Source: Bacteroidaceae bacterium
GTDB lineage: Bacteria; Bacteroidota; Bacteroidia; Bacteroidales; Bacteroidaceae
Direction of reading: 5' to 3'
Assembly (NCBI GenBank): GCA_017428785.1
Contig: JAFRQD010000042.1
Span: forward strand, 1 to 63,703
DNA length: 63,703 nt
The notes below the pieces were generated by a model. That model saw only the letters and a program-made list of their open reading frames with translations. It was not told the origin of the DNA and did no database searches. How positions within the stretch are numbered: the stretch's first letter is position 1; the number at the start of each line of letters is the position of its first letter. Positions 9,501-61,654 of the stretch are shown here, one piece after another. The position numbers were made by a program, and so were the translations under genes.

Positions 9501-9566
9501 TTTACCATTTAATCATTTACCATTTACCATTTAATCATTTACCATTTACCATTTAATCTTTTTGCC
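9501..9566. repeat. 22-bp-period repeat array, TTTACCATTTAATC family
   Basis: Units beginning TTTACCATTTAATC start at 9501, 9523 and 9545. The first two are identical over all 22 bases and the third diverges at its end. It covers the 5' leader of the aminopeptidase P gene and creates an upstream in-frame ATG. Related CATTTACC words occur at about 39970-39990. Confidence 0.85.
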
Positions 9567-9568
9567 TG

Positions 9569-9576
9569 CAAATATA
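9569..9576 (-). promoter_or_regulatory. Candidate -7 box (TATATTTG) for the aminopeptidase P / C1B peptidase pair
   Basis: TATATTTG on the minus strand fits TAnnTTTG and sits about 76 bases before the chosen ATG. The leader between them is the TTTACCATTTAATC array. Confidence 0.5.
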
Positions 9577-9697
9577 GCGAAAATTCCTGACATAAGAGCA
9601 AGTCTTCTATAGAAAAACATCCCACGAGTGTCAATTCCGGCTTTCATCTTTCAGTTTTCCGCCTTCAGACTTTTACTTTTCGGCTTGTCGGATTCTT

Positions 9698-9781
9698 GAA
9701 ACGCAGGTTGCGCATGAAGATTCGCAGGTTGCATTTCAGCATTCGCAGGCTGCGCATCTGCATTCGCAGGTTGCGGCTATC
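9698..9781. repeat. 21-bp-period repeat array, ACGCAGGTTGCG family
   Basis: Four contiguous 21-bp units start at 9698, 9719, 9740 and 9761. Each contains (A/T)CGCAGG(T/C)TGC, a near-palindrome. It lies 50 bases past the alpha-galactosidase stop codon. The same family and period occur at 43170-43253. Confidence 0.9.
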
Positions 9782-9830
9782 GTTCTCAGCATGGCGGGAA
9801 TCTGAATTCGGCAGGCCGCGCTGCTCTTTT

Positions 9831-11885
9831 CTACTCCTGGCGTTCGTATTTCAGCAACAGGCTGCTGCGAGGTTGCGGCAGGGTCAAGGTCAGCCCCTCC
9901 ATCAGTTCTTTGCCGGAATGCCGAGCCGTCTCGTTCGTGTCCTTATTTAAAAGAAGATAGGTCTGTGTGGGTTGAAGGCCGGAGAGCTTCACTTCATAGG
10001 TCGATGCCTGACAGTCGGCCCGTCGGAAAGCCACGATGCAGCCGGAGCCGTCGGCCGGGCGATGCAGCTGATAGGCCAGCCAGATGTCGTCGCCCGTCAA
10101 GTCGCCAATGCCGGAGAGGGGATAGAAATCTTCGTAGAAGTAAGGCCGCACTTCCTCGAACTCCTGCTGTGTCCGCAGCATATCCGTGAAGGACTCGCCT
10201 TGCTGGGTGAGCTTCCAATTGAAGACCACCGCGCTGCCCAGCGAGGAACGCGAGTCGAAGGGGTTCACATGATAGCTGCCTGTGGCATGCTGAGGCAGAT
10301 AGAACTCCAATCCGTAGGTGTGGCATTGATAGCCCACGGGTTCGCCGTAATGGTAGTCAGTACGCCACATCGGAGCGCTCCGCAGCATGGTTTCATAGTC
10401 GATGCGCCGTCCGCCGCTTGCGCAATTATCGATTAAGAGAGAGGGGAAGCGGCTGAGCAGATAGTCCCAATAGTCATAGAGCCCCATGATGTACTTCACC
10501 TCCGTCATTCCTCGCCGCCCGTCCTCGTCATTAGCCAGCCAGATGTTTTCCGGTGCGATGTTGAAGTCTTGCCGGTAAAGGTCGATGCCATTCTCCTCCA
10601 GGATGTCGCCGATGGTCTGGCTCAGCCATTGAAGAGCCTGGGGGTTGCTGAGGTTGAACAAACGATTGTCGCCGCCGGCAGCCAGCATCCACTCGGGATG
10701 TTCGCGCTCCCACCGGCTGTCTTTATAGACACGCTCAGGCTCGAACCAGACCATGAAACGCGCTCCTTGTTGATGGATGTAGTCGGAAATGGGGCGAAGG
10801 GTGTTGGGGAACCGCTTGGCGTCAGGAGTCCAGTTGCCTACGGTGTTGTACCAGTTCTTGCCTGCCCTGTAGTCACTTGCCTCGGTGTACCAGCCGGCAT
10901 CCAACCAGAATGCCTCGGGAGTGAAGCCGAAGAGGTAGGCCCGCTGAACGAGGGCAATGGCGTACTCCGTCGTCATGCAGGTATATTCGTTGCAAGGCTC
11001 GGGGTCTCCCCAATTGAAGCCGCAGAACATGGGATAGTAAACAGGCTTGCCATCCACTTTCCGCGAGTGATGAGCCAGCATGAAGCGTCGGAAAAGGTTG
11101 TGTCCGGCCATCCGGTTGTCGCCTTGCCAGAAGAGGAGACAGACACTTGCCAAGCGGATCTTTTCTCCCGGAAGCAGTCCTGCCTCCAGATGCTTAAGGC
11201 CGGCCGTCAAATGGACGCTGCGGTTGTCAATAGCCGTGACACAGCTGCTCCAGGTTCCTGTCCAGCCGATAGCCACCACGATGCCCTCGCCGTCGGAAGT
11301 CTGAATGTTGAAGAACGGGAAGGCTCCGTCGGAGGAACGGCCGCCATTGGGCGCCATGACGAGTGAGTCCTTCGGCTGCAACAGCTTCTGATGCGGGGCG
11401 AAGTCGGAACGGCTGGCATTGCTTCCCTCGGAATAGTAAAGCGTCGCCGGACGATTGTTCTTGGGGGAGAAGAAGGTGGCGTCTGCGGTCTGGGCCTGGC
11501 TGATGAGCGGGGTTGTGTTCTGCGACAGGTTCTCGAACCTCAGCACCCACTCTACGGCACCAAAGTCCTGCCATCCTGTCACCTCGCACTCCACCTTCAG
11601 ACCTGTCTTCCCGTCGGCATAAGTCACCAAGTAGCGCACCTGGCTTTCCTCAGACGGCAGCCGCGAGATGCTGTGCTTCCACGTTCTGAGAAACTCCGCA
11701 GAAGGCCGGCCTCCATACCGGAACGAGAATGGTGGCGTCTTTCCCTTCGCAAACTGCGAGGTTATCCAACGCTCCACATCCACTCGCCTCCTGCCAAGAG
11801 TGGTTTGGCTCTGAGCCTCAACAGACAGGCTACCTGCCAATAACAGGAAGGATAGGACCAGGAGTGACCGCAAAGAGCTATTCAT
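9831..11885 (-). CDS. GH36 alpha-galactosidase, exported
   Basis: 684 residues with a signal peptide ending near AQS (about 25). An N-terminal beta-sandwich is followed by the (beta/alpha)8 catalytic domain (FWLDAGWY at about 327-333). The expected nucleophile is Asp440 in LYRQDFN and the expected acid/base is Asp510 in RSAPMWRTDYHYGEP. DNCASGGRRID is also typical of clan GH-D. The enzyme removes alpha-1,6-galactose from oligosaccharides or galactomannan. The start overlaps the end of the beta-mannanase gene by 8 bases, so the pair forms one operon: debranching plus backbone cleavage. Identity at family level is firm; preference for galactomannan is inferred from the neighbour. Confidence 0.92.
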   Translation of the reverse strand: MNSSLRSLLVLSFLLLAGSLSVEAQSQTTLGRRRVDVERWITSQFAKGKTPPFSFRYGGRPSAEFLRTWKHSISRLPSEESQVRYLVTYADGKTGLKVECEVTGWQDFGAVEWVLRFENLSQNTTPLISQAQTADATFFSPKNNRPATLYYSEGSNASRSDFAPHQKLLQPKDSLVMAPNGGRSSDGAFPFFNIQTSDGEGIVVAIGWTGTWSSCVTAIDNRSVHLTAGLKHLEAGLLPGEKIRLASVCLLFWQGDNRMAGHNLFRRFMLAHHSRKVDGKPVYYPMFCGFNWGDPEPCNEYTCMTTEYAIALVQRAYLFGFTPEAFWLDAGWYTEASDYRAGKNWYNTVGNWTPDAKRFPNTLRPISDYIHQQGARFMVWFEPERVYKDSRWEREHPEWMLAAGGDNRLFNLSNPQALQWLSQTIGDILEENGIDLYRQDFNIAPENIWLANDEDGRRGMTEVKYIMGLYDYWDYLLSRFPSLLIDNCASGGRRIDYETMLRSAPMWRTDYHYGEPVGYQCHTYGLEFYLPQHATGSYHVNPFDSRSSLGSAVVFNWKLTQQGESFTDMLRTQQEFEEVRPYFYEDFYPLSGIGDLTGDDIWLAYQLHRPADGSGCIVAFRRADCQASTYEVKLSGLQPTQTYLLLNKDTNETARHSGKELMEGLTLTLPQPRSSLLLKYERQE

Positions 11886-13212
11886 CCTTTCTATTGCACC
11901 TTTCCGAAGCTATTCGGATGAGCTTGAGCGTTGTGCTGTCACACGAGAAGACAGCATTGAGCCCCTGTTCCTCCTGGGCTGGGTCGCCCACATAATCGTC
12001 CCATCGCTGCCAGCGGACATGCTTGGGCTGGGCATAGCCGCCCCATGCCCAGAAACAGCAGCCTTGCAGTTTTCCGCTGCGATGAAGCAGACTGAAGACA
12101 TGGGCATAATAGCCGTCACGACCCAATGTGGACGAACCTGGCTCGATGAGATAGCCATCGCGGGGATAGCCGAACTCCTCCAGAACCAACGGCTTGTTCA
12201 AATCCTTCACGGCTTCATAGCAGGAATCGAGGTAGGCGGTCGTGTTTTGGCAAGCGTTCATCAGTCCGGTCAGCGTGGACTTCTCGCCATTCTTGGCAAG
12301 GGCGACCTCGAGCGGACCGCTTGCCGGACCAATCCAATGCCAGTTGTAGGGCCAGATGTGGATGCAGATGTAGTCAATCTCGGGGAAGGCATGAACCTGC
12401 CGGAACAGGTCGGGGTCTTCTTCGCAACCCATGATGCCTTCGCTTCCCGTAGTGACCAAGTGGTTTCCGTCGAGGCTTTTGATGAGCCTGGCCTGTGTCT
12501 CGATCCAATTCGCAAAGCAGGCCTTCGTCAAAGAATCCCTTGCAAAAGCCCTCGGTTCGTTGGCGAGCTCCCAAGCCATGATGGCCGGCGACTCCGAATA
12601 GGGCTTGCCGGTGACGGTGTTGGTGCGAGTGACGATGAATCGGACATGCTGCTCCGCCATCTGCTTTGCCTTGTCGTTCTTGACGAATTGGCAGTGGTAG
12701 TTCTGTGCCGTCGTCCAGTCCGACCAGTCGGGCACCGGCCCGCATCCTGCCCATTCGAGGTAGGCGCCGTATCCCCCACTCCACTCCCATGAGTTGTTCA
12801 GGAAGAGGACTGCGGTCATTTCGCGTTTCTCGAGTTCTGCCAGGAGGTAGTCCAATCCCTGAAGCAGCGTGTCGTTATAGACGCCGGGCTCTGTTTGGAG
12901 GACAGGGACGACGTGCGAAGCCACCGTGTCTGGCCCTTCGCCGGAGGCAAGGACGCGCACATTGGTGATGCCCACAGCCTGCATCAAGTCGAGTTCCTTT
13001 TGGAGGCGTTCACGGTCGCCGCCTTGGCCTTCGGAAGCCAAAACAGCTCCAAACCAGAAGTTTGTGCCGATGAACTTGTACTCGGCATCGCCGCGATAGA
13101 ACTTGCCATCGTGGGTTGTCACAAAACTCGGAGTGGCGGCCGGCTTATCGCTCTGGCAAGCAAAGAGACCTGCCAGACAGGCCGCACACAATAGATACAG
13201 GATGCGTCGCAT
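11878..13212 (-). CDS. GH5 (subfamily 7-like) beta-mannanase lipoprotein
   Basis: 444 residues with a lipoprotein signal peptide; the lipobox is LFAC with Cys19. The mature part begins with FYRGDAEYKFIGTNFWFGA and GITNVRVLASGEG, typical of fungal- and Bacteroides-type GH5_7 mannanases. The acid/base is Glu219 in WELANEPR; the nucleophile is probably Glu346 in LVLEEFGYPRDG. It would hydrolyse beta-1,4-mannosidic links at the cell surface or in the periplasm. It is the first structural gene after the AraC regulator and overlaps the alpha-galactosidase gene. Exo-mannosidase or mannobiose-releasing activity cannot be excluded from sequence alone. Confidence 0.9.
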   Translation of the reverse strand: MRRILYLLCAACLAGLFACQSDKPAATPSFVTTHDGKFYRGDAEYKFIGTNFWFGAVLASEGQGGDRERLQKELDLMQAVGITNVRVLASGEGPDTVASHVVPVLQTEPGVYNDTLLQGLDYLLAELEKREMTAVLFLNNSWEWSGGYGAYLEWAGCGPVPDWSDWTTAQNYHCQFVKNDKAKQMAEQHVRFIVTRTNTVTGKPYSESPAIMAWELANEPRAFARDSLTKACFANWIETQARLIKSLDGNHLVTTGSEGIMGCEEDPDLFRQVHAFPEIDYICIHIWPYNWHWIGPASGPLEVALAKNGEKSTLTGLMNACQNTTAYLDSCYEAVKDLNKPLVLEEFGYPRDGYLIEPGSSTLGRDGYYAHVFSLLHRSGKLQGCCFWAWGGYAQPKHVRWQRWDDYVGDPAQEEQGLNAVFSCDSTTLKLIRIASERCNRKDE

Positions 13213-13242
13213 AACTATGAACTTTGAACTTTGAACTACGGG

Positions 13243-14121
13243 CTAAATGATGATCTTGCTCTTATGGTAATTCTCCCTGAAAGCGGTTGGTGAGCAGCCT
13301 TTCTTCTTCTTGAAGATGCGGTTGAAGTTGCTGATGTTGTTGAAGCCGCAGCTGTAGCAAATCTCTGCCACGCTTGTGTGTGTGTCAACGAGCAGGCGGG
13401 ATGCATAGCCGAGACGGATGTCGATGATGTAGTCGCTGACGGTCTTGCCCGTACGGGTACGGAAGAAGCGAGAGAAGGCGGCTGGCGTCATGCCGGCTAT
13501 TTCGGCAAGTGTCTTGAGGCGAACCTCTGTCTTGAAATTCTTGTCGATATAATCTTCGACGGCCCGGACTCTGCGGCTTTCGGGCTGGTTCTTCACGTTT
13601 GCAAACGACTTGCTGGCAAGCAAATGGTAGTTTTCCTGCAGAGAGAGTTCGTAGAGAATCTCGAGCAATGAGAGCATGCGGTAGAAGCCGGGCTGTGACG
13701 AGGTGATGTTCGTTATCTTTCCATACAGCTCCATGATGGCAGGAAGCTCAAAGGCAACGCCTCGCTTGGCATTCTCGAAGAGTGTGCGGAGGCTGCTCAG
13801 CTGGTTTTTCTGCAAGAACTGCTCGCCAAGAAGGTCTGGGGGAAATTGGATGGTAATCTCGTGGATCGAGCGACTGTGGCAGTCGTACTGGTCCCACATG
13901 TGCTCGAGGCCGCTTCCGATAAGCACGAGGTCGTACTTGCCAAGCTCTTCGATACTGTCGCCCACAATACGCCGCGCTCCGTCGCAATGCTCTACGAAAT
14001 TCAGCTCCATCTCCTCGTGCTTGTGCAGGGGATACGTGAAAGCGTCTTTTTCTCGGTCCACCATCAGGAAACAGTCCTTCTCTCCCAATGGTGTAACCTC
14101 AGTTATTACTTTGTCTGTCAT
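13243..14121 (-). CDS. AraC-family transcriptional regulator with cupin-like sensor domain
   Basis: 292 residues. The N-terminal part is a cupin-like sensing domain (FTYPLHKHEEMELNFVEHCDG). The C-terminal 100 residues carry two helix-turn-helix motifs: LAEIAGMTPAAFSRFFRTRTG and VAEICYSCGFNNISNFNRIFK. It lies 30 bases upstream of the mannanase in the same direction, so it probably responds to a sugar and controls the mannanase/galactosidase genes and itself. A TAACTTTG box at 14169-14176 is the probable promoter. It has no membrane segment, unlike hybrid two-component regulators of many polysaccharide loci. The inducer is unknown. Confidence 0.88.
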   Translation of the reverse strand: MTDKVITEVTPLGEKDCFLMVDREKDAFTYPLHKHEEMELNFVEHCDGARRIVGDSIEELGKYDLVLIGSGLEHMWDQYDCHSRSIHEITIQFPPDLLGEQFLQKNQLSSLRTLFENAKRGVAFELPAIMELYGKITNITSSQPGFYRMLSLLEILYELSLQENYHLLASKSFANVKNQPESRRVRAVEDYIDKNFKTEVRLKTLAEIAGMTPAAFSRFFRTRTGKTVSDYIIDIRLGYASRLLVDTHTSVAEICYSCGFNNISNFNRIFKKKKGCSPTAFRENYHKSKIII

Positions 14122-14168
14122 ACTGAAAAATAATTAGGTTTTAAGGTAGGTTTCGGTTTTTTTCCGCG

Positions 14169-14176
14169 CAAAGTTA
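14169..14176 (-). promoter_or_regulatory. Candidate -7 box (TAACTTTG) for the AraC/mannanase/galactosidase operon
   Basis: TAACTTTG on the minus strand matches TAnnTTTG, about 50 bases before the regulator's ATG and within an A/T-rich stretch. Confidence 0.55.
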
Positions 14177-14274
14177 CATTTTTTTTCTGATAAAAGGAAA
14201 AAAATCAGGCAAAAAAATATCGAAAAATATGGTGCTGGAACAAAAAATTCCGAAGGAAAAGATTCAAAAAAATC

Positions 14275-14619
14275 TTTACAAGAAATGGTCGTTCTGCGTG
14301 GCATCATTGGGCACGTCCTGTGCCGCGTTCTACAACGCCGCGTGCGACGATTGCCAACGCCGCGTGCGATGTTTGCAATTTCCCTGTGCGGCGTTGACTA
14401 TCGCCGCAGGCGGAAATTGCCCGTTTTCTATGCTATCTTTAGCAACGCCGAATGCATCATCGACACTTTCTTAACTGAGCGTCAGAAAATGCGGCTTTGT
14501 AACCCACTGATTATCATAGCCCATTCGATTTAAGCCCTTATTTTGCGTTTGGGGTAGAAAAGTGCCACGAGACCAAAAATAAGCCGCCAGAAGAGGTTTC
14601 GTCAGGAAAATCCTTTACA
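14275..14619. repeat. Composite noncoding element, copy 1 (22-bp array + TTCGATTTAAGC core)
   Basis: This fills most of a long gene-free stretch. In order: TTTACA (14275), a four-unit GC-rich array with units at 14334, 14356, 14378 and 14400 (exactly 22 bp each, ending 14421), a 102-base spacer, TTCGATTTAAGC (14524-14535), AAAGTGCCAC (14559), GCCGCCAG (14583) and a second TTTACA (14614). Copy 3 at 49659-50023 has the same order, with array-to-core distance 190 and core-to-downstream offsets 35, 59 and 89-90. No convincing reading frame spans it, so a structured RNA or small mobile element is possible. Confidence 0.8.
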
Positions 14620-14830
14620 AAAAAGGCCGCAAGACTATGGACAGACCGCTCGAACTGTCAGACCGTCGCAACGGCTGAAATTCTCTTGATTCTACATAAA
14701 TCTTGCATCATAATATTCGGTTTTCCCATAATAAGGGAAAGGAAAAATTATTATTGCAGTCCGGTAAAAATTTTTCATCATTACTTGCACCCTCCTAACC
14801 ATCGGCATTTAGAGCAACATGTGATAGGCA

Positions 14831-15034
14831 GGGGCTTGGGACGCCCCAAAGGGGCAGAAAGATGTCAGCCCAGGGCAGCGCCCTGGGTGTTGAATGCCGC
14901 GGCAAATGACGCTCTGTAAGAGCAAAAGCACTAAAACACACATCTTTTGCCCCTTTAGGGCGAATCTACTTCTGCGTCATAAACCCAGGGCGCTGCCCTG
15001 GGCTGACATCTTAATGGCCTTTCAGGCCGGATTA
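14831..15034. repeat. Large multi-hairpin repeat (REP/BIME-like)
   Basis: Arms 14861-14888 and 14983-15010 are perfect 28-base inverted repeats. Each arm contains its own hairpin (CCCAGGGCAGCGCCCTGGG). Between and beside them are further small hairpins: GCCCCAAAGGGGC, GCTCTGTAAGAGC, GCCCCTTTAGGGC and GGCCTTTCAGGCC. From general knowledge this resembles REP-type elements moved by RAYT transposases in Bacteroidetes; no transposase gene is in the window. It ends about 45 bases past the stop of the radical SAM gene. Confidence 0.85.
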
Positions 15035-15079
15035 ACCGGACAGCAATAAAAATTCATATGGAACGGCCCTTGGCTGTCT

Positions 15080-16312
15080 TCAGAAGAGCGACATCACTCC
15101 GCTCGCCGGCCTTCCTGCAAGGAGTTCCTGCATCATATAGTCCATATAGGGTGCGACGTGCTGGAAGAAGATGCGGTAGCCCGCACAAAGATAGTTGAGG
15201 CCCGGCTCGCCGTCGGCAGTCCTGAGGAAGCGCAGACGCGGGCATTCTCCATGACAGGCCTTGAGCCATTGGCACTCGCGGCATTGACGGGGAAGCGCCT
15301 CTCGCTTCAAGCGGCTGAAACGGTTCTGCTTGGTGCCGTAGAGCATCTGTGGAAGGCCGTGTGTGCGAATGTTGCCCAACTTGTACTGAGGGAAGACGAA
15401 ATGGTCGCAGGAATACAGGTCGCCGTTCTGCTCCATTACCGCCGCATGGCCGCATTCCTCGGCATAGACGCATACACCCGGGGCCTCGCCCAACCAGCCG
15501 GCAAGCGTCGCGTCGAAGAGCTGCACAAACATCTCACCCACATCATGCTTTACCCAATCGTCGAAGATGGCGCACATGAAGTGCCCCCACTCTTCCGGAC
15601 GGATACTGAAGGGTGCGATGGGACAATCCTCGTCGAAGAGCTGTGCCAAATGCCGGCCGTCGCTATGCTCCTTGATGCGCTCCACAACAGGACTTATCTG
15701 CAGGAATTTGCACTTCAGCTCGTCGCGGAAGAAGTGATAGAAGGCAATGGGGTCCTGGCAGTTATAGTGGTTCGCCGTAGCCATCGCATTCCATTCCACA
15801 CCATAATCATTGAGCATCTTTATGCTCTCTACCACCCTTTCCCATGTTCCCTGACCGTGAGCATCGAGGCGATAGGCATCGTGCTGCTCCTTCGTCCCGT
15901 CGATACTGATGCCCACAAGCCAGCCTTCATCGTGAAGGAACTGGCACCATTCGGGCGTCAGGAACAGGCCGTTTGTCTGGATGCTGTTGCTGATTCGCTT
16001 GCCTCGCCCGTAATAATGCTGAAGCCTGACCGCCTGCTTATAGAAAGCCAGCGGCTTGATCATAGGCTCGCCGCCGTGCCAAGCGAAGAGCACGTCAGGT
16101 GTCTGCTGAACTCCGATGTAGTCGCGGATGTATTGCTCAAGGAGCTTGTCGGTCATGCCTTGCCCCCTGCCCTTCGCTCCTTGCTCCTGCGAAGAGCCCA
16201 AGTGCTGCTTCTCCAAATAATAACAATACTTGCAGCGAAGGTTGCATTGCGGCCCCGCCGGCTTGGCCATCACATAAAGTGGCCGGGCGAAAGGATATAC
16301 AATTGACGACAT
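15080..16312 (-). CDS. Radical SAM / SPASM protein, anaerobic sulfatase-maturating enzyme-like
   Basis: 410 residues. The radical SAM cluster motif is CNLRCKYC (Cys23, Cys27, Cys30). The C-terminal half has the SPASM cysteine set (GVCVYAEECGH, YSCDHFVFP, CRECQWLKACHGECPR) that binds two more Fe-S clusters. Enzymes of this type oxidise a Cys or Ser of a sulfatase to formylglycine. No sulfatase is in the window, so the substrate must be encoded elsewhere, or it is a related SPASM enzyme. It starts 1 base after the permease gene and is last in the run C1B peptidase, rbfA, permease, radical SAM. Residues about 39-52 (GSSQEQGAKGRGQG) come from an in-frame repeat (16158-16190) just after the first cluster motif. 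Confidence 0.85.
   Translation of the reverse strand: MSSIVYPFARPLYVMAKPAGPQCNLRCKYCYYLEKQHLGSSQEQGAKGRGQGMTDKLLEQYIRDYIGVQQTPDVLFAWHGGEPMIKPLAFYKQAVRLQHYYGRGKRISNSIQTNGLFLTPEWCQFLHDEGWLVGISIDGTKEQHDAYRLDAHGQGTWERVVESIKMLNDYGVEWNAMATANHYNCQDPIAFYHFFRDELKCKFLQISPVVERIKEHSDGRHLAQLFDEDCPIAPFSIRPEEWGHFMCAIFDDWVKHDVGEMFVQLFDATLAGWLGEAPGVCVYAEECGHAAVMEQNGDLYSCDHFVFPQYKLGNIRTHGLPQMLYGTKQNRFSRLKREALPRQCRECQWLKACHGECPRLRFLRTADGEPGLNYLCAGYRIFFQHVAPYMDYMMQELLAGRPASGVMSLF
16158..16190. repeat. In-frame low-complexity repeat in the radical SAM gene
   Basis: TGCCCCCTGCCCTTCGCTCC followed by TTGCTCC belongs to the same word family as 2701-2730 and 44096-44200. It encodes a Gly/Gln/Lys-rich loop shortly after the radical SAM cysteines. 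Confidence 0.55.
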
Positions 16313-16313
16313 C

Positions 16314-17591
16314 TTACTTCAATAAAGTTCTCGAAAGGTAGCGAACGGGGTACCATATAGCAAGCCAACCGACAGCGAGGACAGTCACGAGAACCAGGAT
16401 GATGTCCGTCCAATAGACACTTACGGGGTAGGTCTCGATGATGAAGCTGCCTTCGCTATCGCCCATCGTGACCACGCCGTACTTCTGCTGTATCCAGCAA
16501 AGCGTCACGCCCAGCACCAAGCCGAGCAAGGCCCCTGCAAGGCTGATGATGTGGCCCTCGAGGCGGAAGATGGTACATATCTGCGAGTCGGTTGCCCCAA
16601 GGCTCCGAAGTGTCTGGATGTCCTGCCGCTTGTCTATCATGAGCATCGAGAGGGAACCGATGATGTTGAAGCAAGCCACCAAAAGGATGAAGGAGAGAAA
16701 GACATAGGAGATGAGCTTCTCGATGCGCATCACACGGAAGACATCGTTCTGCTGCTCATAGCGGTCCTCCACATTGAAGCGCTCGCCAAGCCGAGCCAGC
16801 AGTTGCTTCTTCACCTTGTCTGTGCCCGTCTTGCCATTACTCTTGAGCTTGAGTTCGATTCCCGAAACCCTGCCCTCTCTCTCGAAAAGGCGCTGAGCAA
16901 AGCCGAGGCTTGTGAGGATATAGTTCGCATCGTACTTTGCCTGCCTCACCATAAAGACAACTCCGGGACTCTGCAATTCGTCGTGATTGAACGAAGAGAG
17001 CGGATTGCCGATGTTCACCCTCTCTCCCTGCTTGGGGGCGTACACTTGCAGAGGATTCTCGAAGAAGGCCGGAAGCCCGAGCTGCTGGGCAAGCTGAATG
17101 CCGAGGACGCCATACTCAAGCACATCTGCATGCAGGCAGAAATGTCCGTCGCCATAAAGGATGTCCTCGATGTGCCCCTGCTCTGTCACATTATCAGCCA
17201 CGCCTTTAATGGTCACTACTTGTTGCTTGCCACCTTGCACAACAAGGGCTTGCCCCTCGAGCACAGGCGTATATACCTCCACCATATCGCTCTTCTTGAG
17301 CCACAACAGGTCTTTGTCCTTTGCATCGATGGTCTGCCCGTCTTTCGGCGTGACAAGCAACTCGGGGTCGAAGGCGGTAAAGAGGTCAGCCACAAGGTCC
17401 TGGAAGCCATTGAACACGCTGAGCGTGATCACCATCGCCGTCGTGGCAACTGCCACACCAAGCACCGAGATGCCACTGATGATGTTGATGGCATGATGAC
17501 TCTTCTTGGCGAAGAGATAGCGACGAGCTATGAAGAGTTCGAGCCGCCCCCATCCCCTCCAAACGAAGGGTGAACTGCCGCCTGACCTCAT
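16314..17591 (-). CDS. FtsX-family ABC transporter permease (LolC/LolE-like)
   Basis: 425 residues. One membrane helix lies near the N-terminus (IISGISVLGVAVATTAMVITLSVF), then a large extracytoplasmic domain (about 75-275), then three helices in the C-terminal 150 residues. This is the MacB/LolC-E permease topology. Such permeases extract lipoproteins from the inner membrane with an ATPase (LolD), which is not in the window. The ATG overlaps the rbfA stop (ATGA). The first 15 residues (RSGGSSPFVWRGWG after Met) come from a palindromic repeat between the start codon and the conserved LELFIARRY start, so the N-terminus is an add-on compared with relatives. Lipoprotein release is likely but not proven. 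Confidence 0.8.
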   Translation of the reverse strand: MRSGGSSPFVWRGWGRLELFIARRYLFAKKSHHAINIISGISVLGVAVATTAMVITLSVFNGFQDLVADLFTAFDPELLVTPKDGQTIDAKDKDLLWLKKSDMVEVYTPVLEGQALVVQGGKQQVVTIKGVADNVTEQGHIEDILYGDGHFCLHADVLEYGVLGIQLAQQLGLPAFFENPLQVYAPKQGERVNIGNPLSSFNHDELQSPGVVFMVRQAKYDANYILTSLGFAQRLFEREGRVSGIELKLKSNGKTGTDKVKKQLLARLGERFNVEDRYEQQNDVFRVMRIEKLISYVFLSFILLVACFNIIGSLSMLMIDKRQDIQTLRSLGATDSQICTIFRLEGHIISLAGALLGLVLGVTLCWIQQKYGVVTMGDSEGSFIIETYPVSVYWTDIILVLVTVLAVGWLAIWYPVRYLSRTLLK

Positions 17592-17959
17592 TCGTCCTGT
17601 TCCCCTTCCTTGGATGGGCCAGAGGAAGCCTTCAGCAGCTCATCTATATGCTCCACATAGTCCAGGCTGTCGTCCACAAAGAACTTGAGCTCGGGGATGA
17701 TGCGCAGCTGCTTGCCCACTCTTGTGCCGAGTTCATAGCGAACCTGACGGCCGTTGGTGTTGATGTTCTGCACTATCTCCTCGGCCTTCTCGCTGGGGAA
17801 GACGCTGAGATAGACGCGGCACACACTCAGGTCGGGGCTGATGCGGCAAGCACTGACGCTCACCAGAACGCCCCTCATTGCACTGGTCTGCTTCTGAAAG
17901 ATGTCGCTCAACTCCTTCTGAATGAGGCGAGCTATCTTGTTCTGTCGGGTTGTTTCCAT
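17588..17959 (-). CDS. rbfA: Ribosome-binding factor A
   Basis: 123 residues matching RbfA along its length: RLIQKELSDIFQK at the start, RGVLVSVSACRISPDLSVCRVYLSVFP in the KH-like core, and RYELGTRVGKQLRIIPELKFFVDDSLDYVEHIDELL near the end. It binds the 30S subunit during late 16S rRNA maturation. A short Ser/Glu-rich tail follows. It is 1 base downstream of the C1B peptidase gene and overlaps the permease gene, so it is translated within that operon. Confidence 0.95.
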   Translation of the reverse strand: METTRQNKIARLIQKELSDIFQKQTSAMRGVLVSVSACRISPDLSVCRVYLSVFPSEKAEEIVQNINTNGRQVRYELGTRVGKQLRIIPELKFFVDDSLDYVEHIDELLKASSGPSKEGEQDE

Positions 17960-17960
17960 A

Positions 17961-19328
17961 TTAGTCTTCTTCGCTAAACATCGGGTCCCATGCGGGCAGG
18001 CGGACTGGCTTCTGCTTCAGCAGATTGAGGACGGAGGCGGGACAATACTTGCGGTTCGCCACTATGCGGAACATGTACTCGCGGAACCATTCGTCGGTCA
18101 TGATGATGTAGCCGTTTGCGCCGCTGGAAGAGCCCCAGCTGTTCTCCACCTTCCACTTCTTGGCCTTGCCTGCGCCGTCGAGATCAACGGCCATCAAGGT
18201 CATGGCATGCGTGCTGCCACTGTCGAAGGTCTGGATGCGCTGTTTCTTGTTCATGCCGAAGGTTGTTCCCAAGAGGCTTCCGTAGTCGAAGTTCTTGAGG
18301 TCGGCGATGCCTGTGGTGCGGTCGAGGAACTTGTTGACGTCGCAGCTGAAATAGATCTGGCTGCTGTCCTTCAGGGAGGCGATGGCGATGCTCTCCACCT
18401 CCTCGATAGGCAGGTTGACATAGAGCCAGTTGTGTCCGTCATAGACGTGGCGGTCGTAGTCAATCTCATATACCTTGTTGTACGGACGGCTGGGGTCGTT
18501 CATCAGCATCACATAGTCCTTGTTGAGGTCCTCGCCATCCTCGATGCAATAGGCCTTGAAGAACTCCTGAGGGGTGTAGGTCTTGTCATTCCAAGTGAAC
18601 TGCGTAGGAGGCACGCCGTAGGCCATCACAAGCATCTTATAGACGGTGCCGAGCTGCTCCACCTTGAGCGCCTGCAACTGCTTCTCGCTCATGCCTGCCT
18701 CGCTCTTCTCGCGAAGGGTGATGCCAAACTCGCGCAGCTTCCTCTTCAGGTGTCCGCAGAACTCGCTGGTGCTGTTGCTGACATAGGTCTCGGGCATGAT
18801 GTCGGCAGGGATGACGCCGTACTTCGTGGCAAGGTCGGCCACGCCGGTGTAGGTGCCACCGTCGGAGAGCGGATGCTGGAAGAGCCAGCGCACCATCTCG
18901 CTATCGACAGGCTGCTCTCTGGTGTCGATGATGCCCTGCAGGAAGAGGTTGCTCTTCTCCAACTGGTCGTAGAAGAAGAGGTAGCACTGACTGAGGACAA
19001 AGTCCTTTGTGTCCAGCTTCTTCATCGCTCTGCCTCTCAGCACGTTAAGCCCGGTAAAGAGCCAGCAGCGACCACTGCTCTTCTGGTCGGTAATGCCCGT
19101 GTTCTTAATCTCGATGCCGAAGTGCTTGTCCTTGGCACCGGCATTCTCCTGGTTGATGGCCATCTTCGCGATGCCCACATTGCTGATGGCATTGCGCAGA
19201 GCCTTCTCTGCCGGCGTGCCGGTATAGCTGCCCTCGAGCTGCTTGAGCACCTCGGGAGTAATGCTTGTCTGTGCACCAACCAGCGCACAGGAAAACATGA
19301 TAATTGTAGAGACAATTCCCTTTTTCAT
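17961..19328 (-). CDS. Second C1B-family cysteine peptidase with signal peptide (bleomycin hydrolase type)
   Basis: 455 residues with signal peptide MKKGIVSTIIMFSCALVGAQ. Catalytic residues are Cys88 (SSGRCWLFTG), His374 (STHAMTLMA) and Asn396 (VENSWGS). Compared with the enzyme at 6873-8093 it is closer to classical PepC / bleomycin hydrolase, with the family's FFYDQLEKSNLFLQ segment. The C-terminus ends ...PMFSEED, longer than the C-terminus that blocks the active site in characterised aminopeptidases. Export is the unusual part, since classical members are cytosolic. It heads an operon with rbfA, the permease and the radical SAM protein; a TACCTTTG box at 19366-19373 fits its promoter. Confidence 0.9.
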   Translation of the reverse strand: MKKGIVSTIIMFSCALVGAQTSITPEVLKQLEGSYTGTPAEKALRNAISNVGIAKMAINQENAGAKDKHFGIEIKNTGITDQKSSGRCWLFTGLNVLRGRAMKKLDTKDFVLSQCYLFFYDQLEKSNLFLQGIIDTREQPVDSEMVRWLFQHPLSDGGTYTGVADLATKYGVIPADIMPETYVSNSTSEFCGHLKRKLREFGITLREKSEAGMSEKQLQALKVEQLGTVYKMLVMAYGVPPTQFTWNDKTYTPQEFFKAYCIEDGEDLNKDYVMLMNDPSRPYNKVYEIDYDRHVYDGHNWLYVNLPIEEVESIAIASLKDSSQIYFSCDVNKFLDRTTGIADLKNFDYGSLLGTTFGMNKKQRIQTFDSGSTHAMTLMAVDLDGAGKAKKWKVENSWGSSSGANGYIIMTDEWFREYMFRIVANRKYCPASVLNLLKQKPVRLPAWDPMFSEED

Positions 19329-19365
19329 ACTTTATTATATTATAATGTGTTTGTCAATTATTGCG

Positions 19366-19373
19366 CAAAGGTA
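19366..19373 (-). promoter_or_regulatory. Candidate -7 box (TACCTTTG) for the C1B peptidase/rbfA operon
   Basis: TACCTTTG on the minus strand, about 40 bases before the ATG. The leader is A/T-rich and free of other signals. Confidence 0.55.
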
Positions 19374-19559
19374 CGAAAAAAATAATGAAATAATGAAGAA
19401 AAGAAAAATGAAAAATAAAAAAGTGAGTCATAAGGCACAACGAAAGGGCAACCGACAAAGAGACAGATTGTAAGCTAAAGCGCCGATTCGCTATCATACT
19501 GTCAATTATTGCACACTTCGCAGCAGAGGGAAAAACAAGTCCCGAAAGGCTGTCTTTGG

Positions 19560-19805
19560 AACTTCCGCATGGGGAGTTTGCAAACGCCGCGTGCGGCGAT
19601 TGCTATTTCCGCATGCGGCGTTGCCAATTTCCGCACGCGGCGATTGCAGACTTCGCATGCGAAAAAGTGTGCAAAAAAGCGTTGAAATGGGCAATTTTGT
19701 CAAGCAGAGATGGCAATCAGACCATCGAAGATTGAAAACTCAAAAACGAACACTTCTGACAACTCCTTGTGGCAGAGGCGATTCCGAAATCCTTTCGATT
19801 TAAGC
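19560..19805. repeat. Composite noncoding element, copy 2 (diverged)
   Basis: GC-rich units start at 19560, 19583, 19605, 19627 and 19649 (22-23 bp apart), followed by about 123 bases and TTCGATTTAAGC at 19794-19805. Counting from the unit at 19605, the distance to the core is 189, against 190 in copies 1 and 3. The downstream AAAGTGCCAC and GCCGCCAG blocks are not recognisable here. It lies in the gene-free stretch 19329-20035, where I see no other gene. Confidence 0.7.
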
Positions 19806-20035
19806 GCGTCTTTTCATAAAAATGGTCTCAACCTTAGCCGAGAACATTTTAAGCGATTCTGGAGCGATTGCCCAAAATGCAGATGTAAGCAAAACGGCCG
19901 TTTTTGTAACATTTTGTCAAAAGCGGCATTCTCTCAACTCGTACGCCTCCCGGACTAATTGGCAAGCATGTTGCTGTCCAAACTCGCTACGCAGACTTGC
20001 TGAGCCAACTACGGCTCCTGTCAAGGCTAACACAA

Positions 20036-20218
20036 CTAATACTTCCAGAAGTCGTATTTCTTGCGCAGCTCTTCCTGCTTCTCAGGGGGCAACGACTTGA
20101 AATAACCGCGCCAACTGGGGCAGAAATTGATTTGCCAACGCCAGAAACGGCCGATAAGCGACTTGGGATTCTTGTCATACTGAGCACGAAGCTTGCAGTT
20201 CTCACATGGGTACTTCAT
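20036..20218 (-). CDS. Small conserved-looking protein with CxxC motif
   Basis: 60 residues: it starts MKYPCENCKLRAQYDKNPKS and continues RFWRWQINFCPSWRGYFKSL before a charged C-terminus. Two cysteines form CxxC near the start and a third precedes PSW, which suggests metal binding or a small redox site. There is no signal peptide. It lies 27 bases downstream of the CDF exporter in the same direction, so it may be co-transcribed with it. I do not recognise a named family. The even codon structure and Cys/Trp-rich composition suggest a real gene rather than a chance frame. Confidence 0.65.
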   Translation of the reverse strand: MKYPCENCKLRAQYDKNPKSLIGRFWRWQINFCPSWRGYFKSLPPEKQEELRKKYDFWKY

Positions 20219-20245
20219 AATCTACAATATAAATATGTATTTGGG

Positions 20246-21349: not shown

Positions 21350-21359
21350 ACCCGTCTCT

Positions 21360-21572
21360 CTATAGTTGTTCCTCTATCGGCTGTTCCAGTTGAGCAGGCT
21401 CCGTTGTCGGCTCAAAGCGGCCCATCACCTTGCCTTTGCGATTGGCGAAGCTCACTTCCTGCCCCTTGTTCTGGAGGGCGCTGAATTGATAAACCGTGTC
21501 CGTAGCGCTGGTTTTACATGTAAGCAGACATAACATGACAGCCAGGATTGATAAAAAAGTTCCGTGTCGCAT
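21360..21572 (-). pseudogene. Glutathione peroxidase with its catalytic core deleted
   Basis: From the ATG at 21572 the frame encodes a signal or lipoprotein-like peptide (MRHGTFLSILAVMLCLLTCK), then VYQFSALQNKGQEVSFANRK, which is how glutathione peroxidases begin. It passes straight into GKVMGRFEPTTEPAQLEQ, which is how they end. The roughly 110 residues between, including the catalytic Cys/Sec, Gln and Trp, are absent, yet the frame is kept. The join falls at RKGKV, a string typically found at both places in the family, so recombination between short repeats is a likely cause. A TATCTTTG box remains at 21603-21610. The protein may still be made, but it cannot be a peroxidase. Confidence 0.75.
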
Positions 21573-21602
21573 CTTGATGGATGATTTCAGAAGATTCGCT
21601 TG

Positions 21603-21610
21603 CAAAGATA
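21603..21610 (-). promoter_or_regulatory. Candidate -7 box (TATCTTTG) upstream of the deleted peroxidase and CDF exporter
   Basis: TATCTTTG on the minus strand, about 31 bases before the ATG at 21572. It probably still drives the CDF gene, which has no closer promoter-like box. Confidence 0.55.
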
Positions 21611-21706
21611 AGAAAAAAGAACGACTTTTTGCATGACTTTCAACTAATAATGCCTTTTCATGCAAAAAAGAAGCCCTCTCTTCACACAGAATTCATGTTT
21701 GTGCCA

Positions 21707-21748
21707 TAAAAAAAGCTCCCACCTTAATACAATGACTAAGGTGAGAGC
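21707..21748 (-). terminator. Rho-independent terminator after the small ...DEEW gene
   Basis: On the minus strand GCTCTCACCTTAG pairs with TTAAGGTGGGAGC around a short loop and is followed by seven T. It closes the BspA-like / small-protein transcription unit. A second, palindromic GGGGAG repeat at about 21755-21775 lies between it and the gene. Confidence 0.85.
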
Positions 21749-21806
21749 ATAACTGATTCCCCACTAAGCGGGGAGGGAGTTAGGACTGGCTATTCTTTAC
21801 TATTCT

Positions 21807-24359: not shown

Positions 24360-24380
24360 CAAAGGAATAGATATGTTTTT

Positions 24381-27292: not shown

Positions 27293-28443
27293 ACAAGAAG
27301 CTAATCCCCGTCATGCTATGCTTCTTCGCGATGGGTTTCGTGGATATGGTAGGCATAGCAAGCAACTATGTAAAGGCCGACTTGAACCTCTCCGACTCGA
27401 TGGCGAACACACTCCCCTCGCTCGTGTTCCTGTGGTTCCTCATCTTCAGCATCCCCACAAGCTTGCTGATGAACAAGATCGGCCGCAAGAACACAGTACT
27501 GCTGAGTCTTGCGATGACCCTTGTGGCAATGGCGATTCCGGTATTCACCCTCGATTTCACCATGCTGCTGCTCTCTTTCTCCCTTTTGGGAATAGGCAAC
27601 GCCATCCTCCAGACCTCGCTCAATCCGTTGGTTGACACGGTGATGAAAGGCGGCGCATCAGCCAGCACCCTGACCTTCGGGCAGTTCATCAAGAGCATCG
27701 CATCGTTCCTGGCTCCCATCATCGCCTCTTGGGGAGCCACCACAAACGCTTTCGGCCTGGGTTGGCAAGCACTCTATCCTATATATTTATGTGTAGGAAT
27801 TGTGGCAACGCTGCTGCTCTTCGGCACCCGCATCGACGAGGAACCCGCAGCCCAAGAGCAGAAGTCTGTGGGCGAACAGTTTGCCGGAGCTTTTGCTCTG
27901 CTGGGCAATCCCTTCATCCTGCTCTGCTTCCTGGCCATCATCTGCCATGTGGGCATTGATGTCGGCACCAGCGTAACAGCCCCGAAGATACTGATGGAAC
28001 GGACAGGCATGGAACTTAACAATGCCGCTTTCGTCTGCACCATTTACTTCGTAGCAAAGGCCGTCGGCAGCTTCTCGGGCAGTTTCATCATGAACTACCT
28101 GAAGGACTGGAGCTTCCTGCTCCTGAGTGTCCTGCTGATGGTACTGGCCGCCGTTGGCCTCATCTACGGCCACGACACCGCCACCATCTACGCCAGCGTG
28201 GCTCTGATGGGCTTCGGCAACGGCAACCCCTTCAGCATCATCTTTGCAAGAGCCATGCAGGCTGTTCCCGAGAAGAAGAACGAAGTGAGCGGCTTGCTCA
28301 TCATGGGCATCTTCGGCGGCACCGTCTTCCCGCTCCTGATGGGCTTCGCCAGCGATGCAATGGGACAGGTCGGCGCCGTTCTCGTCATGGCTGTCGGCAT
28401 CCTCTATCTGCTCGGCTTCTGGCTCCAAGGCAGGAAGGCCTGA
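27289..28443 (+). CDS. MFS sugar transporter (FucP/GluP-like)
   Basis: 384 residues with about 12 membrane helices. The N-terminal helix MLCFFAMGFVDMVGIASNYVKADLNLSD, the loop MNKIGRKNT (MFS motif A) and GIGNAILQTSLNPLVD resemble the fucose/glucose/galactose:H+ symporter group of Bacteroidetes. It would import the hexose that the co-translated kinase phosphorylates. Mannose is the likely substrate from context. A 22-bp repeat array starts 9 bases after the stop. Confidence 0.88.
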   Translation: MNKKLIPVMLCFFAMGFVDMVGIASNYVKADLNLSDSMANTLPSLVFLWFLIFSIPTSLLMNKIGRKNTVLLSLAMTLVAMAIPVFTLDFTMLLLSFSLLGIGNAILQTSLNPLVDTVMKGGASASTLTFGQFIKSIASFLAPIIASWGATTNAFGLGWQALYPIYLCVGIVATLLLFGTRIDEEPAAQEQKSVGEQFAGAFALLGNPFILLCFLAIICHVGIDVGTSVTAPKILMERTGMELNNAAFVCTIYFVAKAVGSFSGSFIMNYLKDWSFLLLSVLLMVLAAVGLIYGHDTATIYASVALMGFGNGNPFSIIFARAMQAVPEKKNEVSGLLIMGIFGGTVFPLLMGFASDAMGQVGAVLVMAVGILYLLGFWLQGRKA

Positions 28444-28451
28444 CAACCTGG

Positions 28452-28539
28452 CAAGTGTAGTTGACGAACCTCACAAGTGTAGTTGACGAACTTGACAAGT
28501 GTAGTTGACGAATTAGGCACGTTTAGTTTGCGAACTAAG
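28452..28539. repeat. 22-bp-period repeat array, CAAGTGTAGTTGACGAA family
   Basis: Units start at 28452, 28474, 28496 and 28518, exactly 22 bp apart. The first three share CAAGTGTAGTTGACGAA; the fourth is diverged (CACGTTTAGTTTGCGAA). The fourth unit and its edges also form a hairpin (AGGCACGTTTAGTT with AACTAAGCGTGCCT) followed by ATGTTTTT, which may terminate the mannose operon. Confidence 0.9.
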
Positions 28540-28679: not shown

Positions 28680-28767
28680 AACGCCGCGTGCGGCGATGGC
28701 AATCCCCGGCTGCGGCGATGGGCATTTCCGCGTGCGGCGTTGGCAATCGCCGCAGCCGGCGTTTTCA
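28680..28767. repeat. 22-bp-period GC-rich repeat array (CCGCGTGCGGCG family), four units
   Basis: Units start at 28680, 28702, 28724 and 28746, all 22 bp. Their 5' words run AACGCC, ATCCCC, ATTTCC, ATCGCC, the same order as in the array at 37724-37811, so whole arrays have been copied. The rest of the gene-free stretch 28540-28680 holds only imperfect inverted repeats. Confidence 0.9.
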
Positions 28768-37723: not shown

Positions 37724-37811
37724 AACGCCGCGTGCGGCGATGGCAATCCCCGCGTGCGGCGATGGGCATTTCCGCGTGCGGCGTTGGCCATCGCCGCAGG
37801 CGGCGTTTTTC
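37724..37811. repeat. 22-bp-period GC-rich repeat array, four units, touching a stop codon
   Basis: Units start at 37724, 37746, 37768 and 37790. The 5' words run AACGCC, ATCCCC, ATTTCC, ATCGCC, as at 28680. The last base of the array (37811) is also the last base of the porin gene's stop codon. Confidence 0.9.
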
Positions 37812-43128: not shown

Positions 43129-43169
43129 CGGCGCAGCCGGATAAATGTCTTTCCGGCCGTCACGGACTT

Positions 43170-43253
43170 GATACGCAAGCTGCGTATGTAGAAACACAAC
43201 TTGCGTCTGCAGAAACGCAGCCTGCATTTGTAGATACGCAGGCTGCGTTTTCA
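43170..43253. repeat. 21-bp-period repeat array, ACGCAGSCTGCGT family, four units
   Basis: Units start at 43170, 43191, 43212 and 43233, each 21 bp (GATACGCAAGCTGCGT type). They share their core with the array at 9698-9781. The near-palindromic cores could form small hairpins at the end of the xth-flippase transcript. Confidence 0.92.
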
Positions 43254-43332
43254 GATTTTTGCGCGGAGGAACAAAGAATGCCGCCTGCTAAAAGGGCATA
43301 ACAGGCAGCAGGTATTCGAAAAGCCTCCCGCG

Positions 43333-49658: not shown

Positions 49659-50023
49659 TTTACAAAAAAACTGCCATTCCATCGGGAAAACCATCAGGGC
49701 GCATGGGGTGTTTCCAAACGCCGCACAGGGTGTTTCCAAACGCCGCACGCGGAAATGGCCAACGCCGCACGCGAAGTTTGCAATCGCCGCACGGGGAATT
49801 GACCGACGCCGGCAGCCGAAAATCACACAAAAACCGGCAAAAACAGCTTATTTTGCAAGGCGGAGATGTCAATTCCGCACCATTCGGCCTCAAATCCACA
49901 ATTTCAACAACCTGATTATCACCGGAAATTCGATTTAAGCGCGTTTCTCGCCTTCGAGGCTACAAAGTGCCACAAAGCAAAAAAAACGCCGCCAGAGAAG
50001 GCTCCCTCCGAAAAAAGTTTACA
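49659..50023. repeat. Composite noncoding element, copy 3 (22-bp array + TTCGATTTAAGC core)
   Basis: TTTACA at 49659; GC-rich units at 49695, 49717, 49739, 49761, 49783 and 49805, all 22 bp apart; TTCGATTTAAGC at 49929-49940; AAAGTGCCAC at 49964; GCCGCCAG at 49988; TTTACA at 50018. From the unit at 49739 the spacing to the core is 190, identical to copy 1. It fills most of the 865-base gap between divergent genes. Confidence 0.82.
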
Positions 50024-60147: not shown

Positions 60148-60153
60148 AATTCA

Positions 60154-60495: not shown

Positions 60496-60514
60496 AATCT
60501 TACAGTTTTAGATG

Positions 60515-61087
60515 TTACTTAGCACCAGCTGACTTACCGGACTTTCTGCGGATCTGCTCACCGAGGAACAGGATACCTTTGCCCTTATAAGGCTCGGGCT
60601 TACGGAAAGAACGAATCTTAGCACATACCTGACCGAGAAGCTGCTTGTCGCAGGACTCCAGGATAATCTGGGGGTTCTGGTTTCTCTCGGACTTTGTCTC
60701 TACCTTGATTTCAGAGGGAAGCTGAAGGAGGATGGGGTGCGTGTAGCCGAGCGCGAACTCCAGAAGGTTGCCCTGGTTAGACACGCGATAGCCGACACCT
60801 ACGAGCTCCAGCTGCTTCTTGTAACCCTCAGAAACGCCAACGACCATATTGTTGATGAGGGAGCGGTAGAGGCCGTGGAAAGCCTGCTTCTGCTTTGTCT
60901 CAACCGTGTCGTTTTCTTCTACGATCTCGAAAGTCATTTCGCCGTCAGCGATGTTGATCTTGATGGAAGGATCAACAACCTGAGACATCTCACCCTTCGG
61001 GCCTTTCACTGTAACCTTGTTGTCATCGCTGACATTGATAGTCACTCCGGCAGGAATGCTTATGGGCAATTTACCTATTCTTGACAT
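60515..61087 (-). CDS. rplF: 50S ribosomal protein L6
   Basis: 190 residues: MSRIGKLPISIPAGVTINVS, VTVKGPKGEMSQ, then the second half with GVGYRVSNQGNLLEFALGYT and YKGKGILFLGEQIRRKSGKS. Confidence 0.97.
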   Translation of the reverse strand: MSRIGKLPISIPAGVTINVSDDNKVTVKGPKGEMSQVVDPSIKINIADGEMTFEIVEENDTVETKQKQAFHGLYRSLINNMVVGVSEGYKKQLELVGVGYRVSNQGNLLEFALGYTHPILLQLPSEIKVETKSERNQNPQIILESCDKQLLGQVCAKIRSFRKPEPYKGKGILFLGEQIRRKSGKSAGAK

Positions 61088-61104
61088 AATGTATTCCTCC
61101 TAAA

Positions 61105-61500
61105 TTAATAAACGTAGCAAAGCACTTCGCCGCCGATTTTGAGGTCGGCAGCCTCTTTGTTCGTCATTACACCCTTAGATGTGGAAAGGATAGCGATACC
61201 CAATCCGTTGATAACTCTCGGCATATCCTTGTAACCGGTGTACTTACGCATACCGGGCGTGGATATTCTGATTAGCTTCTTGATAGCATTCACCTTGTTG
61301 ACGGCATCATACTTCAAGGCAATCTTGATTGTTCCCTGAGGACCATCTTCCACGAACTTGTAGTTCAGGATGTAGCCCTTCTCGAAGAGGATCTTCGTGA
61401 TCTCCTTCTTAAGATTTGACGCAGGCACCTCCACTACTCTGTGCTTGGCCTGAATTGCATTGCGCAATCTTGTCAAATAGTCTGCAATTGGATCTGTCAT
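61105..61500 (-). CDS. rpsH: 30S ribosomal protein S8
   Basis: 131 residues: MTDPIADYLTRLRNAIQAKH and the C-terminal RVINGLGIAILSTSKGVMTN with EAADLKIGGEVLCYVY. It regulates the spc operon in some bacteria. A three-unit GC repeat array separates it from rpsN. Confidence 0.97.
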   Translation of the reverse strand: MTDPIADYLTRLRNAIQAKHRVVEVPASNLKKEITKILFEKGYILNYKFVEDGPQGTIKIALKYDAVNKVNAIKKLIRISTPGMRKYTGYKDMPRVINGLGIAILSTSKGVMTNKEAADLKIGGEVLCYVY

Positions 61501-61588
61501 AAAAATTTAAATTTAATTGATCGGGACTTTCCCGACAATATTAAAACTTTATTTTCTCTCTCTGCCAGAGGCAGTTACGGAGTCTGAA

Positions 61589-61654
61589 AACTCCGCGTGC
61601 GGCGATTGCAAATTCCGCGTGCGGGGATGACCAACGCCGCGTGCGGCGTTTGGA
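61589..61654. repeat. 22-bp-period GC-rich repeat array within the ribosomal operon (rpsN-rpsH gap)
   Basis: Units start at 61589, 61611 and 61633 (22 bp each; AACTCC, AATTCC, AACGCC words before GCGTGCGG). It lies 4 bases past the rpsN stop, in a gap of about 160 bases inside an operon whose other gaps are mostly under 40. The remaining gap sequence holds only a short GGGACTTTCCC palindrome. Confidence 0.9.

Follow-up and report, generated by a model that had tools for sequence, protein, structure and literature searches.

The intergenic DNA of a Bacteroidaceae bacterium carries short tandem arrays that differ in sequence from family to family and share a repeat period of 21 to 22 bp. We found them in the window, which is the whole stretch of 63,703 nucleotides that was analyzed and is contig C36 of a draft genome (G000; 2,981,395 bases in 71 contigs), and then in further stretches of the same genome and in other species of its genus. 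On balance, these are probably sites for dimeric DNA-binding proteins, arrayed in helical phase throughout the chromosome, and their likely job would be to organize or insulate the DNA between transcription units.

The period was measured in the intergenic stretches between genes called with a simple hexamer method made for this analysis (hereafter gaps). Each gap was scored for self-match at lags of 9-60 bp, and one letter-shuffled copy of each gap served as the control; gaps longer than 1500 bp were excluded here and from the dyad, TTTGCAAA and 5-mer enrichment, palindrome-spacing, placement, copy-number, and A/T-run tests. The samples consisted of the window and further stretches of its genome (461,106 bases in all), 29 further species from the same genus, and 17 genomes from other families. 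At lags 18 through 26, respectively, 0, 0, 5, 15, 59, 1, 4, 1, and 0 of the 183 gaps of this genome passed. The original prediction, a note made from the window sequence alone, had expected an excess of 21-22 bp periods within the 18-26 bp range and had named a broad distribution as the result that would speak against it; the observed peak is sharp (59 plus 15 of 183 gaps) and the distribution is not broad. The peak recurs in the 29 genus species, where 78 of 506 gaps passed at lag 22 and 26 at lag 21, as compared to 2 at lag 20 and 5 at lag 23, and none of the 61 gaps from the sampled genomes of other families passed at lag 21 or 22. Over all lags, the shuffled gaps gave 1, 2, and 3 matches for this genome, the other genus species, and the other families, respectively. 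Tandem Repeats Finder (TRF), run on 441,106 bp and counting non-overlapping arrays with a score of at least 50, returned 62 arrays of period 22, 12 of period 21, 2 of period 20, 1 of period 23, and 7 of period 24. Arrays of lag 22 were present in 17 of the 28 species of the dyad-test listing, and TRF detected 12 arrays in the species G051.

The spacing of palindromes was scored after exclusion of six simple 8-bp palindromes and of arrays that were more than 80% A+T or half one base, an exclusion that also applies to the placement test. In 1.82 Mb from the genus, 64 pairs of identical 8-bp palindromes had a spacing of 22 bp and 13 a spacing of 44 bp, with at most 2 at each remaining distance from 9 to 60 bp; in 275 kb from other families, none lay at 22 or 44 bp. 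On the lag test and the palindrome-spacing test, a chance origin of the period was rejected. The arrays named in the original prediction were found at their places and the steps were borne out, with 22 bp in the CGC (14333, 19556, 28684, 37726, 49717, 61588), TACATGTA (2112, 6690), and CAAGTGTAGTTGACGAA (28441) families and 21 bp in the CGCAGG family (9702, 43170). Four of the five families to which such a period had been ascribed therefore stand, and the array at 9501 falls into a heptamer class apart.

The number of cores per array is nearly fixed within a family. Four cores are present in 21 of 39 CGC arrays (range 2-6), in 7 of 11 GGTTAACC arrays, and in all eight arrays of the 21-bp family, and three cores are present in 8 of 9 TACATGTA arrays and 4 of 5 ATCATGAT arrays. 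The predicted "about four units" thus describes the CGC and 21-bp families and fails for TACATGTA, copy number being family-dependent. All 12 TACATGTA arrays of G020 contain three units between unique flanks. Unusually long 22-bp arrays were seen at L153 6627-6813 (G020, 8.5 units) and at L165 9283-9454 (G013, 7.8 units).

Many units are near-palindromic, a feature absent from the original prediction. In a set of 151 arrays, two dyad axes lie half a period (∼11 bp) apart, with dyad scores of 4.4 for the best phase (3.0 in a column-permuted control) and 2.9 for the second axis (1.1 permuted). In a pool of 26 other species (30 minus 4), the strongest 5-mer excess at lag 22 belongs to ACGTG/CACGT (30 versus 0.7) and ATTGC/GCAAT (23 versus 0.6), and TTTGCAAA is enriched in the gaps of the genus (17 versus 1.7 and 32 versus 5.7 expected; 1 versus 0.7 in other families). 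These excesses indicate that the families are diverse yet not wholly unrelated. Since ACGTG/CACGT and TTGCAA-like spacers recur among them, the earlier description of the families as unrelated was right about their diversity and otherwise too strong.

The families are multi-copy and species-restricted. The word CCGCGTGCGGCG is present 459 times in the full genome and its reversed pattern 0 times. Pairs of CGC-type cores 22 bp apart number 226 in this genome, 203 in G051, 1-2 in three more genomes, and 0 in 96 of the 101 genomes searched; among the matches listed in named genomes (at least 67 stretches), all records with CGC pairs are titled uncultured Bacteroidales, Prevotellaceae, or Bacteroidaceae, and they include RUG12391 and one from yak omasum. 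For GGTTAACC, pairs were counted in G012 (105), G024 (112), G116 (17), and G115 (1), with 0 in 117 of 121 genomes. In the same number of genomes, TACATGTA pairs occur in 17 (maximum 173, in G020; backward control 0-8) and TTTGCAAA pairs in 20. Of the 295 genomes searched in the order, 2 have GCAATTGC pairs, namely this one and G397, which belongs to another family; there, three near-identical copies of a pair with a 22-bp spacing, at C1:69109, C10:24138, and C27:13201, look like one dispersed element.

To follow the arrays over a short evolutionary distance, we used the sister species G012 and G024, whose alignment spans 84 kb with 11 arrays and 38 lattice sites. Rates were counted in 8 of the 9 alignment blocks, the block at 78.8% identity being omitted. 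Changes were found at 6 of 288 positions in the 8-bp cores, 12 of 213 in the three bases beside the cores, 39 of 284 in the spacers, 983 of 10465 in other intergenic DNA, and 2977 of 23796 third codon positions. The cores change more slowly than other intergenic DNA (p=1e-6) and the spacers faster (p=0.02); that is, the cores are under purifying selection, and the spacers are free in sequence and rarely in length. Five indels of at least 12 bp were found in the 84 kb, of which three measure 22 bp and two of those correspond to one array unit each; none of the five is an insertion of a whole array. A comparison of the CGC spacers in 19 of the 21 four-core arrays (two degenerate arrays were omitted) revealed that spacers occupying equivalent positions in separate arrays agree at 9.7, 8.8, and 9.2 of 12 bases and neighbors within an array at 8.0, which indicates that whole arrays spread ready-made. 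Both the spread of whole arrays and the gain and loss of units are thus observed.

Beyond this pair, the cores in some orthologous gaps have changed. Gene order around window positions 6873-26099 is common to eight relatives, wholly or partly. In one gap of this region (gap B, window 14122-15079), the array zones of five species form a nearly gapless alignment in which the flanks are conserved and the 22-bp register is kept, and the cores differ: CGC here, AATATATT in G034, CAACGTAGGG alternating with its complement in G005, an ACGTG-type core in G035, and CTCGCGTGC in G013. The same gap holds 8.5 units of a further word in G020 and is a 90-bp gap without an array in G012 and G024. Similarly, the gap at 43129-43332 contains the 21-bp CGCAGG array here, a 22-bp GGTTAACC array in G012 and G024, and a third, 22-bp unit in G034; the G034 orthologue of the gap around 61588..61652 contains another 22-bp unit. 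In a further gap (gap A), the TACATGTA family is common to this genome, G005, and G034, which counts against turnover of words at fixed places, and another family is present in G012 and G024. Among 100 orthologous gap pairs, arrays were present in both members of 21, in one member of 25, and in neither of 54. The margins predict 11.2 pairs with both, an excess to which one sister pair contributes 6 of the 21 and which gap length confounds. Those six pairs, from G012 and G024, have the same family, and in the 15 non-sister pairs, which represent only 5 gaps, the units differ by eye.

Because the cores are conserved, the spacers are free, and the helical step is fixed, we take the arrays as platforms for sequence-specific binding proteins. 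The core would be a short, mostly palindromic site recognized by one protein dimer, and the step of 21-22 bp would set three to four dimers along one face of the helix. Dimers so placed would be able to touch, to bind cooperatively, and to form a nucleoprotein block of fixed size. Several such families would coexist in a genome, and since the preferred core differs among species, the sites appear to have been replaced genome-wide over time. A DNA-bound protein with helical phasing was one of two explanations offered by the original prediction, and the purifying selection on cores, the near-constant length of the spacers, and a period common to families throughout the genus favor it. The palindromic sites, the fixed helical step, and the selection are those of a cooperative operator array of the ArgR or MetJ type. 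The promoter location of a regulon was not found, as 6.5% of 124 arrays of the genus pool have a start codon within 60 bp versus 22.8% under random placement. A more ambitious proposal, which we offer tentatively and regard as possible rather than probable, is a genus-wide chromosome organizer in which several proteins per cell occupy fixed-size, 22-bp-phased arrays between operons. The pairs of protein and word would co-evolve fast, and species that share gene order would rewrite the words in place while step, register, and site are kept.

Several points weigh against arrays of phased protein-binding sites. No binding protein was identified, and no homology search for one was made. The arrays compared between G012 and G024 were seeded by an exact core in either genome, which introduces some bias toward conservation, and the selection result comes from one sister pair and two core types. 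Clear palindromy is not universal, a dyad score of 6 being reached by 25 of the 151 arrays (control 5). In the TACATGTA family pooled over four species, symmetric positions change together, at 24 versus 17.6 and 20 versus 14.9 of 25. Terminator-like A- and T-runs often flank the CGC and GGTTAACC arrays. Finally, this genome alone has no clear bias in gap type once gap length is considered, the 61 placed arrays being divided among co-directional (32), divergent (15), and convergent (14) gaps. Arrays outside called gaps were left as unplaced; six of the 21/22-bp arrays lie within predicted genes, five of them being 21-bp coding repeats and the sixth a CGC array whose gene call is probably over-long.

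Some of these points are what would be expected if the arrays were transcription terminators or mRNA-end hairpins, in which the array, once transcribed, would fold into a long stem and end or protect transcripts arriving from either side. In the genus pool, arrays in co-directional gaps lean to the stop-codon side (mean relative position 0.31, n=80), and arrays are commoner in convergent gaps (37/76) than in co-directional (80/374) or divergent ones (22/114). Of the 39 CGC arrays, 21 have an A-run to their left and 25 a T-run to their right (0.10 and 0.14 at random points), and 6 and 6 of the 11 GGTTAACC arrays have the A-run and the T-run. However, such runs are missing in the TACATGTA (0/9), ATCATGAT (0/5), and 21-bp (0 and 1 of 8) families, arrays are present in divergent gaps too, and a stem does not require a 22-bp tandem period. 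In both gap A and gap B, the array is preceded by a separate terminator-like hairpin and followed by promoter-like DNA (by eye), though in a simple scan only 29 of 158 sides had a terminator hairpin between stop codon and array. The strand of CGC arrays agrees with that of the gene in about 8 of 15 cases and is opposite in 7 (by eye).

The pairing tests bear on the same question. Within species, the CGC (n=132) and GGTTAACC (n=27) families have no covariation between symmetric positions outside the core, and several of these positions are less complementary than permuted; the exception is one symmetric position of GGTTAACC (26 versus 25.0 of 27). The center pair of CGC is complementary in 1 of 132 units versus 57.7 expected. 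The absence of covariation in these two families argues that base pairing is not the conserved property. In addition, G020 units are symmetric in 2 of 28 versus 7.8 expected, and nested pairing of the freely evolving CGC spacers was not seen, spacers 1 and 3 pairing at 7.47 of 12 within an array and 7.42 across arrays (19 arrays). A pool of AACGTGTT units (n=14) has a weak symmetric excess at two positions. Neither this excess nor that of the TACATGTA pool is seen within any single species, and both fit half-sites of a dimer changing together, as well as pairing. Selection for a hairpin therefore has no support in the two largest families, CGC and GGTTAACC, and the symmetric excess is confined to the TACATGTA and AACGTGTT pools. 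We consider it unlikely that the arrays as a whole are terminators, and the CGC and GGTTAACC families may also end transcripts.

Marginally less likely still is that the arrays are non-autonomous elements akin to repetitive extragenic palindromic (REP) sequences, bacterial interspersed mosaic elements (BIMEs), or miniature inverted-repeat transposable elements (MITEs), whose spread would serve themselves and whose conserved cores would be the marks of a mobilizing enzyme. Like REP/BIME elements, the arrays are dispersed, intergenic, and palindromic, and hundreds of species-restricted copies have spread as ordered modules. Yet a single period is common to families of different sequence, the core number is near-fixed, and the sister species have conserved cores at the same places. 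The genome has one Y1 transposase gene, of the REP-associated tyrosine transposase (RAYT) type, and it is flanked by other REP words, CCCAGGGC...GCCCTGGG. No array repeats matching the ends of this gene were found, the nearest 22-bp array in its locus (L149) being ∼2.5 kb away. Moreover, G012, G020, and G024 have more than 100 array pairs each and no Y1 match in their draft genomes. On these two grounds, the Y1 transposase was rejected as the mover. The RAYT-type words themselves occur at L149 9800-10440 around the Y1 gene and at window ∼14840-15030 beside an array.

The second explanation of the original prediction, replication or repair copying that fixes the length of a unit whatever its sequence, is highly improbable, for although two arrays of the sister species differ by exactly 22 bp, such changes resemble ordinary gain and loss of a 22-bp repeat, the CGC family spread by whole arrays rather than units (spacer agreement of 9.7 versus 8.0), selection acts on the cores only, and one genus has a tight period that the other families sampled lack.

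Table 1. Tandem arrays in the window and their setting.
Array	Position	Setting
TACATGTA family, 3 units x 22 bp	2112..2177	38 bp past stop codon of gene 2215-5391(-)
TACATGTA family, 3 units x 22 bp (gap A)	6690..6755	Different family in same gap of G012 and G024
CGCAGG family, 4 cores, 21-bp period	9702..9775	
CGC family (gap B), 2 near-exact and ∼2 degenerate units	14333..14414	Right end by eye
CGC family, 4-5 units x 22 bp	19556..19661	
CAAGTGTAGTTGACGAA family, ∼4 units x 22 bp	28441..28537	Begins at stop codon of 27289-28443(+)
CGC family, 4 cores, 22 bp, A-run left/T-run right	28682..28761	Ends by eye
CGC family, 4 cores, 22 bp	37724..37805	6 bp past stop codon of 37811-39118(-)
CGCAGG family, 4 cores, 21-bp period, convergent gap	43170..43256	
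CGC family, 4-5 degenerate units, 22/44 bp, divergent gap	49717..49811	
CGC family, 3 cores, 22 bp	61588..61652	7 bp past stop codon of 61659-61943(-)

The window also contains a second class of intergenic repeats, AT-rich tandem arrays of heptamers and octamers, at 9500-9562, 13213-13237, 26091-26125, and 29991-30050. The first of these is the array at 9501 mentioned above. It lies 7 bp from a predicted gene start and consists of 7- and 8-mers, ATTTACC/ATTTAATC, so that 7+8+7=22 and periods of 7 and 15 are detected as well; it belongs to this class and is separate from the phased palindrome arrays. The same class is the source of the raised counts at lags 14 and 16 (23 and 10 of 183 gaps) in this genome. 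A tandem repeat of a different kind, with a 68-bp unit, was observed in G034 at L168 2201-2355 (2.3 copies, 93% match). No structured RNA family was matched in the window, as 0 of 4227 Rfam families reached the gathering score.

If the arrays are indeed binding platforms, then genomes of this genus contain hundreds of them, with a fixed spacing and a sequence that differs among related species, and they provide a rare chance to follow change in a chromosome-wide protein-DNA code. The interpretation would also imply that in a large group of gut bacteria much of the inter-operon DNA has a structural role and is not idle, and it predicts a class of proteins that should be retrievable with one DNA oligo.

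In the literature covered, which included few subscription papers, no report of a common 21-22 bp period in Bacteroidales gaps was found. A comparable element within the order is BrickBuilt, a MITE of Porphyromonas gingivalis that is an intergenic, multi-copy tandem array of a 23-nt repeat in restricted hosts (PMC4596501). In the part of that report available to us, BrickBuilt differs in being one family, of 19 copies in a strain, with a leader and a tail, and no set of families with a common period is described (PMC4596501). The TAACTGA heptamer repeats of Beggiatoaceae, some Cyanobacteria, and Bacteroidetes are likewise abundant intergenic direct repeats and putative binding sites, but have a 7-bp unit and a single word and, going by the available part of the source, lie mostly immediately 5' of start codons (PMC4679880). 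A search of plasmids with a CGC array returned 2 weak matches of 28-33% coverage, both within annotated genes of other bacteria. Plasmid iterons, such as the 22-bp iterons of R6K, are short, helix-phased direct repeats in 3-7 copies, whereas the arrays are chromosomal, occupy hundreds of sites, and have no replication gene beside the loci examined. Clustered regularly interspaced short palindromic repeats (CRISPR) combine identical repeats with unique spacers of similar length and cas genes; the spacers of 8-14 bp, which are too short, and the hundreds of loci speak against that reading. REP/BIME elements, which are dispersed palindromic intergenic repeats associated with RAYT transposases, differ in that the RAYT of this genome carries its own, different repeats. 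The ARG boxes of ArgR and the met boxes of MetJ resemble the arrays in being tandem palindromic sites with a fixed step; they are bound side by side, ARG boxes lying ∼21 bp apart. They are a few operators near the promoters of one regulon, in contrast to hundreds of arrays away from gene starts, in several families with species-specific words. In the Neisseriaceae, the dialects of DNA uptake sequences are short words, each present in many copies, that vary among related species. Those words are single or inverted and the arrays described here are phased and tandem, but a word that varies from species to species is common to both systems.

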